DNA of 64,000 nt from the IMG/VR virus record IMGVR_UViG_3300017968_001235, positions 1 through 64,000 of that record. The stretch is one strand, 5' to 3'. The notes under the pieces were generated by a model. It searched no databases and was not told where the DNA came from. It worked only from the letters and a program-made list of their open reading frames with translations. Source of the DNA: a virus. Both the position numbers and the translations under genes were made by a program. Of the stretch, positions 3,174-8,243 are shown in pieces (positions within the stretch are counted from its first letter, which is position 1; each line of letters opens with the position of its first letter).

Positions 3174-3824
3174 ATGGCCTTTTTAGTTCATAACCTACCA
3201 CCTATCGAAGTTTTTGTAAAGAAGGAATTCTTATATGACCATCAAAAAGGTCACGGAGAAGTTACTCCTGGGTTATGGATTAGTGTTAAAAGTATAGAAG
3301 GTAGAGCATTATATTTTGAAACACTACTAACAGAGTACGGTGCATTATACGATAAATTACCTCTTAGTGCGTTTGTTTGGAAAGAAGATTACTTACATAG
3401 CGAACAACTTCCTTTAGATACACTACAGATTTGGGATTGCTTTGATTACGATATTACAGTAATTAAAAAGCCTATGCTAAGTGATTGTGAATTTTTTGGC
3501 AAAGATCGTAAAATGCATAAAGGTGAATATCTTTTTACTATTGATAATTGTCATAGAGATAAAACTGCTCTTAATCAAAACTTTGCAGAACACGATCCAG
3601 AACACAAATCATTTAATGTAATTAAATTAGACAACGGACAATTTGCCGCACAACCAAATAACAGAGTAGTGTTTACAGATCAAAGTCTTGTTCCAACTGA
3701 TCGTAAAACACCAGACTTCAAAGTATGCACCCAAAACTACACAGTTGAAAATACTCCTAAGTGGAGTGTAGGACACACAGACGAGTGGCACTACAAGGAC
3801 CGCAACGAAACCTTAGACACCTAG
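3174..3824 (+). CDS. Conserved T4-like phage protein, function unknown
   Basis: This 216-residue protein belongs to a family I recognise from T4-like cyanophages and pelagiphages by its N-terminus (HNLPPIEVFVKKEFLYD) and the segments GRALYFE and LDNGQFAAQPNNR. The family has no assigned function. The sequence is rich in beta-strand-forming and aromatic residues and has no signal peptide or membrane segment, as expected for a soluble protein. It has its own strong ribosome binding site and follows the virion-type gene run. Its conservation in this phage group suggests a core role. Confidence 0.75.
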   Translation: MAFLVHNLPPIEVFVKKEFLYDHQKGHGEVTPGLWISVKSIEGRALYFETLLTEYGALYDKLPLSAFVWKEDYLHSEQLPLDTLQIWDCFDYDITVIKKPMLSDCEFFGKDRKMHKGEYLFTIDNCHRDKTALNQNFAEHDPEHKSFNVIKLDNGQFAAQPNNRVVFTDQSLVPTDRKTPDFKVCTQNYTVENTPKWSVGHTDEWHYKDRNETLDT

Positions 3825-4429: not shown

Positions 4430-4693
4430 ATGAGTGACCGAACTTACGGCGCAGACGAAAAAGCCAAACTAGAAAGATTGGTTAACGAAGGCGTAACAGT
4501 ACTTCAAGAAATTTCAGACTTACAAGAAGGTTTGAAAGATACTGTTAAAGCAGTTGCAGAAGAACTAAACATTAAACCATCACTAATTAACAAAGCAATT
4601 AAGATTGCACAAAAAGGTGAATGGGGTAAAGTTGCTGATGATTTTGACGACCTAGAAACATTGATTGTTACTGTAGGACGTGATAAACTATAA
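4430..4693 (+). CDS. dsbA: DsbA-like double-stranded DNA binding, late transcription protein
   Basis: This 87-residue protein matches T4 DsbA in length (89 residues) and in the order of its parts: an N-terminal helix, a segment with LKDTVKAVAEELNIKPS resembling KDIRIRAKDELGV in T4, and an acidic C-terminal end. T4 DsbA binds DNA near late promoters and assists late transcription. The helical segment around residues 38-60 could be the DNA-contacting unit. The gene follows a consensus early-type promoter and overlaps the start of the next gene by one base (TAATG). The similarity was judged by eye and is low, so a different small DNA-binding protein is possible. Confidence 0.55.
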   Translation: MSDRTYGADEKAKLERLVNEGVTVLQEISDLQEGLKDTVKAVAEELNIKPSLINKAIKIAQKGEWGKVADDFDDLETLIVTVGRDKL

Positions 4694-4979: not shown

Positions 4980-5291
4980 ATGAAATATATGGTTGACATT
5001 GACAACACAATCTGCTATACTAACGATAGTAATTATGAAAAAAGTGAACCCGATTTAGATAGAATCGCTCACTTTAATAAGTTGTTTGATGAAGGCCATG
5101 ACATTCATTATTGGACTGCACGAGGTGCAGTATCAGGCAAAGATTGGCAAGACTTTACAATGAAACAACTTAAAGGCTGGGGAGTTAAATTTACTAGTGT
5201 AAGATTTGGCAAACCACATTATGATATTTGGATAGATGATAAGGCAATAAATGATAAAGAATACTTTAAACAACAAGGAAGTACAGACTAA
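4980..5291 (+). CDS. HAD-superfamily phosphatase
   Basis: This short (103-residue) HAD-fold protein has the nucleophile motif DIDNTI (residues 5-10, DxDxT type), motif II in WTARG (about 40-44), a Lys near 60-70 and a terminal acidic DIWIDDKA, which fits motif IV (DD). That is the full set of catalytic residues for phosphate hydrolysis, in a minimal form without a cap. Relatives act on sugar phosphates or nucleotides; the substrate is not shown. It lies in the small-gene run just before the polymerase. Confidence 0.75.
   Translation: MKYMVDIDNTICYTNDSNYEKSEPDLDRIAHFNKLFDEGHDIHYWTARGAVSGKDWQDFTMKQLKGWGVKFTSVRFGKPHYDIWIDDKAINDKEYFKQQGSTD
4993..5021 (+). promoter_or_regulatory. Possible internal promoter in the HAD gene
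   Basis: TTGACA (4993-4998), 17 bases, then TATACT (5016-5021) with an extended-10 TG just upstream. It lies within the 5' coding part of the HAD gene, where the codons for VDID make TTGACA by themselves, so chance is likely. If real, it would drive the genes leading into the polymerase. Confidence 0.25.
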
Positions 5292-5526
5292 ACCCTACCA
5301 ACCGTTAGCATGGGTGGCAACTGCTGTCTTGCTATTAGCGGCAACTACGTTATCTGCTTTAGATAATCAAGTTTATGCTACATACGGATTTGGTATTGCA
5401 TCTACTATTTGGACAGTAGTTGGAATACTTTGGAAAGAGAAGTCATTAATAGTTTTAAACGGCGTACTAACAATTATATACTTAGTAGGCATTTTTAAAC
5501 ATTTGTATGGTGTTATCGGCCAGTAA
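5251..5526 (+). CDS. Small membrane protein upstream of DNA polymerase
   Basis: A protein of up to 91 residues with two or three hydrophobic segments (about 22-38, 46-60 and 68-85). It overlaps the HAD gene by 41 bases. The ATG at 5251 is the only ATG in frame before the first membrane segment; a GTG at 5314 would remove part of that segment, so I kept 5251. No family recognised. Its position directly before gp43 may mean co-transcription rather than shared function. Confidence 0.55.
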   Translation: MIKNTLNNKEVQTKPYQPLAWVATAVLLLAATTLSALDNQVYATYGFGIASTIWTVVGILWKEKSLIVLNGVLTIIYLVGIFKHLYGVIGQ

Positions 5527-5540
5527 ACGATTAGTTGGTA

Positions 5541-5562
5541 TTTGTCAGCCTGAAGTGACAAA
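5541..5562 (+). promoter_or_regulatory. RNA hairpin operator at the DNA polymerase RBS
   Basis: TTTGTCA (5541-5547), an 8-base loop and TGACAAA (5556-5562) form a perfect 7 bp stem. It ends 2 bases before the ribosome binding site (aggag) of the polymerase gene. T4 gp43 represses its own translation by binding a hairpin with an 8-nucleotide loop at the same place, so this is a likely counterpart. The loop sequence differs from that of T4. Confidence 0.65.
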
Positions 5563-5573
5563 CAGGAGAAAAA

Positions 5574-8243
5574 ATGAGTTATGTAGATGCAATCTTTGAT
5601 CGCGACCAAGATATTATTCGTGTAGTAGAACGAAAAGACGGTAAGCGACACCTTACAGAATATCCAATTAAATATACATTCTATTATAAAGACCAAAGAG
5701 GAAAGTATAAAAGTATCTTTGGCGATCCGTTATCACGTATTGTAGCAAAAAATACAAAGCAATTTAGAAAAGAACTTGCTATTAATCAAAACAAAGAACT
5801 GTTTGAAAGTGATATTAATCCTATATTCCAATGTTTAAGTGAAAATTATTTAAACGTTGATGCTCCAAAACTAAATGTTTGCTTCTTTGACATTGAGACT
5901 GACTTTGATCCAGAACGTGGATTCGCAGATCCAAGCGATCCATTTATGCCAATTACTGCAATTACAGTACACTTACAATGGCTAGATAGTCTTGTTACAT
6001 TTGCAATGCCGCCTAAAGGTTTGACAATGGAACAAGCAAAAGAAGAAGTAAAAGAATTTCCAAACACATACTTGTATGATAACGAAGGCGATATGCTTGA
6101 AGCATTCTTAGATATTATTCAAGATGCAGATATACTAAGTGGTTGGAACAGTGAAGGTTATGATATTCCTTACACAGTTAATCGTGTTGCTCGTGTACTA
6201 AGCAAAGATGATACAAGACGTTTTTGTTTATGGAAACAACTTCCTAAAAAACGTGAGTATGAAAAGTTTGGTAAAACAGCACAAACCTATGACCTAGTAG
6301 GCAGAGTGCATTTAGATAGTTTGGAATTATATCGTAAATACACATATGAAGAAAGACATACTTACAGACTTGATGCCATTGGTGAAATGGAAGTCGGCGA
6401 AAACAAAACTGTTTACGAAGGTACGCTCGATCAACTTTATAACAATGATTTCAGAAAGTTCATCGAATACAACCGACAAGACGTTGCACTACTGGACAAG
6501 TTGGACCAAAAACTAAAGTTCATTGACCTATCAAATGAACTAGCACACGCAAATACGGTTTTGCTACAGACCACAATGGGTGCGGTAGCAGTTACAGAAC
6601 AAGCAATTATTAACGAAGCACATCACAGAGGACTACAAGTTCCTAACAGGACAAAACGTGAACCAGGTAGTGATCCTGCGGCAGGTGCTTATGTTGCATT
6701 TCCTAAAAAAGGTGTACACAAGTGGATTGGTTCGATGGACTTGAATTCACTATATCCATCTGTGATTCGTGCATTGAATATGGATCCAGCAACTATCGTT
6801 GGACAACTACGTCCTGATCACACACAAGCATACTTAGAAGAAGCAATGACATTGCAAAAGAAATCATTTGCAGGTGCTTGGGAAGGTAAGTTTGGAACAT
6901 TAGAATATGATGCAGTTATGGAAAAGAGAAAAGACTTTGACATTACTGTAGACTGGGAAGGTAAAGAACCTGAAGTATATAGTGCGGCAGAAGTTCATAA
7001 AATTATCTTTGATAGCAATAACCCTTGGATGCTTACAGCAAACGGAACAATACTTACAACCGAGTTTGATGGTGTTATTCCAGGACTACTAAAACGTTGG
7101 TATGCTGAACGTAAAGAACTCCAAGCAATGAAGAAGAAGGCAATTGATGCAGGAAACAAAATTGAAATTGCATTTTGGGACAAAAGGCAACTTGTTAAAA
7201 AGATTAATCTTAACTCTCTTTACGGGGCCATTCTTAATCCTGGTTGCAGATTTTTTGACCCGAGGATAGGACAATCAACTACACTAACAGGTAGACAAAT
7301 TGCAAAACATATGGCCGCTGAAGTAAACAAAGTTATTACAGGTACATATGATCACGTAGGCGAAAGTGTTATCTATGGTGATACTGACTCTGTGTACTTT
7401 AGTGCATATCCAGTTCTTAAGAAAGAAATTGAAGAAGGTCAAATACCGTGGACTAAAGAAAGTGTAATTAAACTTTATGACCAAGTATGCGATGAAGCAA
7501 ACAGTTCTTTTGAAGCCTTTATGGCAAAGGCATTTCACTGTCCAAAGAGTCGTTCAGATGTTATTGCGGCAGGTAGAGAAATTGTTGCTGAAACAGGATT
7601 ATACATTACAAAGAAACGTTATGCGGCACTTGTATATGATGAAGAAGGTGAACGTAAAGATGTTGATGGCAAGCCAGGTAAAGTAAAAGCAATGGGTCTT
7701 GATCTTAAACGTTCAGATACTCCTGTGTTTATGCAGGAATTTTTAAGTGAACTATTACTTATGGTTTTAAAAGAAGCATCTGAAAAAGAAGTATTAGATC
7801 GTATTACAGAATTTAGAACTGAATTTAAAATACGTCCTGGCTTTGAAAAAGGTTCGCCTAAACGTGCAAACAAGATTGGTGAATACTTACGAAAAGAACA
7901 ACGTGATGGCAAAACAAATATGCCTGGTCACGTTCGAGCAAGTATCAATTGGAATACACTGAAGAAAATGAACGGTGACAAATACTCGCAAGAAATTGTA
8001 GATGGTATGAAAGTTATTGTTTGTAAACTAAAACAGAATCCATTAGGGTATACAAGTGTTGCATATCCTACAGATGAACTACGTTTGCCGGACTGGTTTA
8101 AAGAACTTCCATTTGATGACGATGCTATGGAAGGTACTATTATTGATAATAAACTAGATAACCTTATCGGTGTGTTGGATTATGATCTAAGTAGTACACA
8201 ACAGAAAAATACGTTTAACAATTTATTTGACTTTGGAGAATAA
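5574..8243 (+). CDS. 43: Family B DNA polymerase, T4 gp43-like
   Basis: This 889-residue protein is close to T4 gp43 (898 residues). The proofreading exonuclease begins at FFDIETDFD (about 104-112; Asp and Glu metal ligands). The polymerase motifs are DLNSLYPS (motif A, about residue 389), KINLNSLYG (motif B, about 543) and YGDTDSVYF (motif C, about 601). It would replicate the phage genome with the gp45 clamp encoded at 10261. A hairpin just upstream of its ribosome binding site suggests autogenous translational control. It is complete, with no split or intein, and the exonuclease gene begins directly after its stop. Confidence 0.98.
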   Translation: MSYVDAIFDRDQDIIRVVERKDGKRHLTEYPIKYTFYYKDQRGKYKSIFGDPLSRIVAKNTKQFRKELAINQNKELFESDINPIFQCLSENYLNVDAPKLNVCFFDIETDFDPERGFADPSDPFMPITAITVHLQWLDSLVTFAMPPKGLTMEQAKEEVKEFPNTYLYDNEGDMLEAFLDIIQDADILSGWNSEGYDIPYTVNRVARVLSKDDTRRFCLWKQLPKKREYEKFGKTAQTYDLVGRVHLDSLELYRKYTYEERHTYRLDAIGEMEVGENKTVYEGTLDQLYNNDFRKFIEYNRQDVALLDKLDQKLKFIDLSNELAHANTVLLQTTMGAVAVTEQAIINEAHHRGLQVPNRTKREPGSDPAAGAYVAFPKKGVHKWIGSMDLNSLYPSVIRALNMDPATIVGQLRPDHTQAYLEEAMTLQKKSFAGAWEGKFGTLEYDAVMEKRKDFDITVDWEGKEPEVYSAAEVHKIIFDSNNPWMLTANGTILTTEFDGVIPGLLKRWYAERKELQAMKKKAIDAGNKIEIAFWDKRQLVKKINLNSLYGAILNPGCRFFDPRIGQSTTLTGRQIAKHMAAEVNKVITGTYDHVGESVIYGDTDSVYFSAYPVLKKEIEEGQIPWTKESVIKLYDQVCDEANSSFEAFMAKAFHCPKSRSDVIAAGREIVAETGLYITKKRYAALVYDEEGERKDVDGKPGKVKAMGLDLKRSDTPVFMQEFLSELLLMVLKEASEKEVLDRITEFRTEFKIRPGFEKGSPKRANKIGEYLRKEQRDGKTNMPGHVRASINWNTLKKMNGDKYSQEIVDGMKVIVCKLKQNPLGYTSVAYPTDELRLPDWFKELPFDDDAMEGTIIDNKLDNLIGVLDYDLSSTQQKNTFNNLFDFGE

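Follow-up and report, generated by a model that had tools for sequence, protein, structure and literature searches.

A putative translational operator of two tandem H-type pseudoknots upstream of a gp43-type DNA polymerase gene in a viral genome

The window analysed here is a 64,000-nucleotide stretch of viral DNA (positions 1 to 64,000 of the IMG/VR record IMGVR_UViG_3300017968_001235). We consider it probable that positions 5509–5562 of the window, directly upstream of a DNA polymerase gene, form a translational operator of that gene, predicted to consist of two tandem compact H-type pseudoknots and probably autogenous. Comparative sequence data support each of the elements of this prediction, namely the hairpin stem (S2), the pseudoknot stem (S1), the position at the Shine-Dalgarno (SD) sequence, the restriction to the polymerase gene and the tandem layout.

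The tandem element in the polymerase leader

The gene that follows the element (5574–8243, plus strand), its target, encodes a family B DNA polymerase of 889 amino acids, which is also the ligand proposed for the operator. The protein matches phrog_262 (E 7.9e-199), and its best PDB match is RB69 gp43, over residues 25–834. The predicted model (mean pLDDT 81, moderately confident) resembles RB69 gp43 over nearly the full length with a TM of ~0.74. The window polymerase is of the gp43 type.

A stem is formed by TTTGTCA (5541–5547) and TGACAAA (5556–5562), which enclose the loop GCCTGAAG (5548–5555). On its 3′ side it is followed by a C, the SD sequence AGGAG (5564–5568), AAAAA and the ATG at 5574. 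A preliminary description of this region (5541–5568) had reported a stem of 7 perfect base pairs and an 8-nt loop, ending two bases short of GGAG, and the sequence confirms it. Two features were absent from that description: the GCC of the loop pairs with a GGU just upstream, and a second copy of the element is located at 5509–5531.

In the leader RNA the distal part reads GGU-GUU-AUCG-GCCAGUAAA-CGAU (5509–5531), and after a 5-nt spacer the proximal part reads GGU-A-UUUGUCA-GCCUGAAG-UGACAAA (5537–5562). In each copy, GGU would pair with the first three bases of the loop to make S1 (3 bp), the stem of the hairpin would serve as S2, and the A-rich remainder of the loop (L3) would cross S1. Accordingly assigned on the plus strand, the putative proximal pseudoknot has GGU at 5537–5539 and GCC at 5548–5550 as the two strands of S1, L1 from 5540, the stem of the preliminary description as S2 (5541–5547 with 5556–5562), and UGAAG as L3 (5551–5555). 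It ends 1 nt before the SD sequence, and is predicted from the sequence, from conservation and covariation in relatives and from a covariance-model match of 26.6 bits. The putative distal pseudoknot, also on the plus strand, comprises GGU (5509–5511) and GCC (5519–5521) as S1, L1 at 5512–5514, AUCG/CGAU as S2 (5515–5518 with 5528–5531) and AGUAAA as L3 (5522–5527), giving a 9-nt loop. Its assignment draws on the sequence, a covariance-model match of 16.4 bits and a counterpart in the tandem clade.

An upstream open reading frame of 91 amino acids (5251–5526, plus strand) has its stop codon (5524–5526) inside the distal loop, so that terminating ribosomes would unfold the distal copy. Two further proteins are encoded upstream. 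The 87-residue protein at 4430–4693 matches phrog_12534 and has a weaker match to phrog_639 (transcriptional regulator); many related contigs also encode it upstream of the polymerase, and it is an alternative candidate for an RNA- or DNA-binding regulator. The 216-residue protein at 3174–3824 strongly matches phrog_3704, annotated as ferredoxin (E 5e-103).

Taken alone, the hairpin is weak, modest evidence. A comparable stem arose in 30 of 2000 shuffles and in 55 of 3000 random 43-mers, that is, in about 1.5–1.8% of equal-length stretches, and a similar stem was present at 3 of the 21 SD-bearing open reading frames of the window, two of them besides the polymerase. Thermodynamic folding of the 80-nt leader as a single sequence was not better than that of its shuffles (z +1.9). 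The comparison with relatives is decisive: the hairpin goes far beyond chance because relatives conserve it with compensatory changes.

Covariation of the two stems among relatives

Relatives were collected by scanning IMG/VR with six polymerase queries (those of the window, L075, L078, L053, L249 and the cultured phage Phosso) and by a single scan of GTDB contigs, giving 414 loci in total, with the polymerase start located in 410. They are uncultured contigs, and the rows are related to each other, so row counts do not represent independent events. Three of them (L411, L412 and L413), with polymerases 77–79% identical to that of the window, are binned as archaeal or Marinimicrobia MAGs and are probably phage contigs in those bins. 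Across the 410 loci, a compensated stem with a GCCNNAAR-type loop of 8 or 9 nt is commonly found at the same place as in the window; 9-nt loops occur beside 8-nt ones in relatives, and also in the distal copy of the window.

The S2 letters vary while the pairing is retained, as in TGTCA/TGACA, TGCCA/TGGCA, TACCA/TGGTA, CGTTG/CAACG, GTTCG/CGAAC, TGCGA/TCGCA and others. In alignment A1, whose rows had been preselected for a stem, two-sided changes were observed at all five S2 pairs, and the covariation was 0.737 versus 0.262 after shuffling. A less biased test picked proximal sites on the loop sequence alone with pairing ignored; the innermost S2 pair was in register at 46 of the 56 distinct sites, and at the remaining 10 the stem is recovered when the loop is taken as 9 nt. 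The preliminary description had made its proposal depend on the stem being kept in related phages, and both conservation and compensatory changes were found at this position.

Upstream of the stem, the pairing partner predicted for S1 is present without exception. Hairpins of this type within 60 nt of a polymerase start were picked without regard to the upstream sequence; 108 are distinct, and in 108 of 108 a trinucleotide located 1–4 nt 5′ of the stem is complementary to the first three bases of the loop. When the upstream letters were shuffled in 500 trials, the mean was 20.5 and the maximum 33, and hairpins of the same form outside leaders had such a partner in only 50 of 306 cases (Fisher p about 1e-60 relative to 108/108). 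The two strands also change together: loops beginning with GCC are preceded by GGU or GGC, and loops beginning with GCU by AGU. The change from GGY:GCC to AGU:GCU is seen in L024, L028, L034 and L049 and again in L338 and L393, which are separate clades on the tree. In alignment A2 (46 rows, with L1 excised), pair 1 of S1 shows a two-sided change in 5 rows, pair 3 alternates between U-G and C-G, and pair 2 is invariant. S1 has its limits as a covarying helix, with 3 bp only, an invariant middle pair and two-sided changes always of one type.

Because the upstream trinucleotide pairs with the start of the loop, with the co-change of GGY:GCC to AGU:GCU, the element is best read from the alignments as a compact H-type pseudoknot rather than a plain hairpin of the T4 type. 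It has a length of about 22–25 nt, with an L1 of 1–4 nt, no nucleotide between S2 and the 3′ strand of S1, and an A-rich L3 of 5–6 nt. Among the 8-nt loops, position 7 is A in 64 of 64 and position 6 is A in 61 of 64. Given this geometry, L3 may contact S1 in the minor groove.

Occurrence and forms of the element

Covariance model R1 was run, together with a scan by hand, on the window and on the other 19.9 kb of the 83.9-kb record, and the only credible matches were the two tandem copies. In 13 large phage records, ranging from 135 kb up to a 2.4-Mb assembly, clear R1 matches were located at the polymerase and no significant copy was found elsewhere, the rest having E above 0.15 and the weak matches that were sampled being chance-like. 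A 24-nt DNA motif, which stands for just one of the element's common forms, was also searched in IMG/VR independently of the polymerase. Among the matches listed, 80 of 80 lead into a polymerase: 63 directly, 16 with a single inserted gene in between, and the last on a contig which stops 65 nt later, yet already encodes the polymerase N terminus. Judged by these searches, the element is polymerase-specific. The preliminary description is supported to this extent: the ribosome-binding site of the gp43-type polymerase gene carries a conserved, covarying RNA element, and the phage records searched contain no significant copy away from this gene, as an operator of the gene would predict. The polymerase is the candidate binder.

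In 7 of these records a search for the Pfam families of RegA and gp32, the other translational repressors of T4, detected neither, whereas the positive controls T4 and RB49 were detected; some records may not be complete, and such a search could overlook diverged proteins. Further genomic copies of the element, which would have suggested a regulator with several targets (RegA, for instance), were sought, and none was significant.

On a FastTree phylogeny of 166 non-redundant rows, 94 carry a single element, 21 (the window included) the tandem form and 18 a relocated form, and 33 have no element in the upstream DNA searched, several of these with another gene abutting the polymerase. The element is thus conserved in about 80% of these relatives. 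The tree requires 5 changes for absence, 3 for the tandem form and about 10 for relocation. The single form is likely to be ancestral, since it is common in both main groups, and the tandem form derived.

In the relocated form the element lies 600–1500 nt upstream of the polymerase and about 10–20 nt before the start of an inserted gene. The inserted genes are of at least four kinds, including a 2OG-Fe(II) oxygenase-like gene that scores below the Pfam cut-off (L045, L097, L121, L141, L216, L221), a tryptophan halogenase (L230) and two kinds without Pfam matches (L165, L175, L406, L408). The 3′ end of the inserted gene overlaps or abuts the polymerase start, which suggests translational coupling between the two, and the element keeps its place at the head of the unit whose last gene is the polymerase. 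In some freshwater relatives (e.g. L407 and L385; about 63–67% identity) the SD sequence is itself entered by the 3′ arm of S2, so that translational repression is the natural reading.

Unrelated genes have repeatedly been inserted at this junction between the element and the polymerase. Some clades (L022, L207, L198, L201 and relatives; L140, L138 and L256) have lost the element; in them the polymerase start comes directly after, or overlaps, the end of the upstream gene, and they offer natural negative controls. The element was also looked for, and found absent, in five nearer cultured relatives (Phosso, Atu_ph07, 121Q, RaK2 and Vibrio 2.275.O) as well as in T4 and RB49.

A second conserved hairpin, element A, is located upstream of the pseudoknot, at about −75 to −30 relative to the polymerase start, in most single-element relatives. 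It occurs at 1930–1966 of L285 and in the L385 and L407 leaders, with GAGUC-GCUC-ACUUUAC-GAGC-AUGUAGA as an example, and its stem arms covary in 15 leaders (GCTC/GAGC, GTTC/GAAC, GTCC/GGAC, GTTG/CAAC). In the window's clade, the second pseudoknot is at about the place of element A.

Proposed repression, other readings and known systems

The fold very probably represses translation by blocking initiation. When stabilised, the proximal copy, owing to its place next to the SD sequence, would block the 30S subunit at the polymerase start; where a gene has been inserted, the block would fall on the first gene of the cassette ending in the polymerase. What, then, would stabilise the fold? By analogy we lean towards the polymerase itself, which in excess over its DNA substrate would bind as T4 gp43 does on its hairpin operator, and the two copies could provide tighter or cooperative repression. 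Autogenous control is known in the gp43 family, as the T4 and RB69 proteins repress their own translation via a hairpin operator (PMC3014915). On the other side, some T4-related gp43 proteins do not autoregulate (PMC3014915), which counts against the proposed explanation, as do the absence of the element from 33 of the 166 relatives and from the five cultured relatives, T4 and RB49, and the limits of S1 given above.

The same pseudoknot operator might instead respond to another phage or host RNA-binding protein, for instance a single-stranded-DNA-binding protein that escaped recognition, or the small conserved protein encoded upstream (4430–4693). There is precedent in T4 gene 32, which is controlled by a pseudoknot bound by gp32 (PMC3014915), and the 87-residue protein has its weak match to the phrog_639 regulator family and its recurrence upstream of the polymerase. 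We nevertheless regard this as unlikely, given that a single target per genome, always the polymerase, fits self-control better than a shared regulator, and RegA and gp32 were not detected in the seven records searched. It is improbable, too, that the structures work free of any ligand, by tuning basal translation, ribosome standby or the stability of the polymerase mRNA. S2 abuts or contains the SD sequence and should by itself lower initiation, but S2 on its own has little stability (about −1 to −6 kcal/mol), and S1 and the A residues of the loop are far stricter than the letters of S2, beyond the need of simple SD masking.

The preQ1-I, SAM-II and SAM/SAH riboswitches likewise have an H-type pseudoknot close to or including the SD sequence. 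This layout, common to small translational riboswitches, and the occurrence of tandem copies would suit a very small riboswitch for a metabolite such as a nucleotide. However, the window element, at about 22–25 nt, is shorter than these riboswitches, occurs at one gene only and has been seen only in phages so far, and most of its conserved bases either pair or belong to L3. Rfam 15 contains no family match above the gathering score and nothing credible even at E up to 5. We thus find a riboswitch quite improbable, and give as little credence to a variant of it in which the tandem pseudoknots would be a switch smaller than known riboswitches, sensing a metabolite of replication (a dNTP, for example) or the free-polymerase state, with cooperative gating of polymerase synthesis. 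The SAM/SAH riboswitch has been described as an H-type pseudoknot (PMC7367207).

According to the preliminary description, the element is a T4/RB69-type hairpin operator with a diverged loop at the same position. It does resemble the T4/RB69 gene 43 operator in lying at the ribosome-binding site upstream of a gp43-type family B polymerase gene and in having a stem with an 8-nt loop. The T4 operator, which we read in the T4 sequence as AGCCU-AAUAACUC-GGGCU, ends 18 nt before the AUG, however, compared with 11 nt for the window element. For the T4/RB69 operator, a simple hairpin, there is no indication of a pseudoknot (PMC3014915), whereas here the conserved 5′ part of the loop is predicted to pair with the upstream GGY or AGY. 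A plain hairpin is very hard to reconcile with an S1 partner in 108 of 108 hairpins and with the co-change in two clades. The UAAC/UAAA loop bases of T4, RB69 and RB49 are not present in GCCUGAAG, and many relatives have UAAA or UAAG at another loop position, which makes shared loop recognition only suggestive. The tandem copies of the window's clade and the SD sequence within the stem in some freshwater relatives are further differences from the gene 43 operator. Finally, it can practically be dismissed that the stem arose by chance or terminates the upstream gene: about 1.5–1.8% of comparable stretches have a stem this long, but here it is conserved with covariation in most relatives, and SD and AUG rather than a U-run follow it.

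The element has the target and place of the gp43 operator and, as predicted, the fold class of the T2/T4/RB69 gene 32 operator. The latter is also an H-type pseudoknot of viral origin in the leader of an mRNA for replication, and autogenous translational control would be a further parallel. In gene 32 the pseudoknot is situated about 67 nt upstream, and from it gp32 is nucleated on a tract that is rich in A+U and contains UUAA(A) repeats (PMC3014915). The window element, in contrast, precedes a polymerase gene and abuts the SD sequence with 11 nt from stem to AUG, and gp32 went undetected in the seven records searched. We file it under neither system, because it fails the loop and no-pseudoknot features of the one and the gene and tract features of the other.

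According to a 2010 review, no viral pseudoknot other than the one of T4-type gene 32 may serve in translation autoregulation, and the hairpin of T4 gene 43 is a plain one (PMC3014915). In the literature that we searched, with most subscription journals outside it, no pseudoknot is described for a phage polymerase gene. Here, many uncultured phages of marine and freshwater origin have a predicted pseudoknot family outside Rfam at their replicative polymerase gene. This family would join the two T4 paradigms and extend polymerase self-control well beyond the coliphages, and its natural compensatory variants (AGU:GCU, SD-in-stem, tandem versus single) make recognition of the RNA by the polymerase directly testable.
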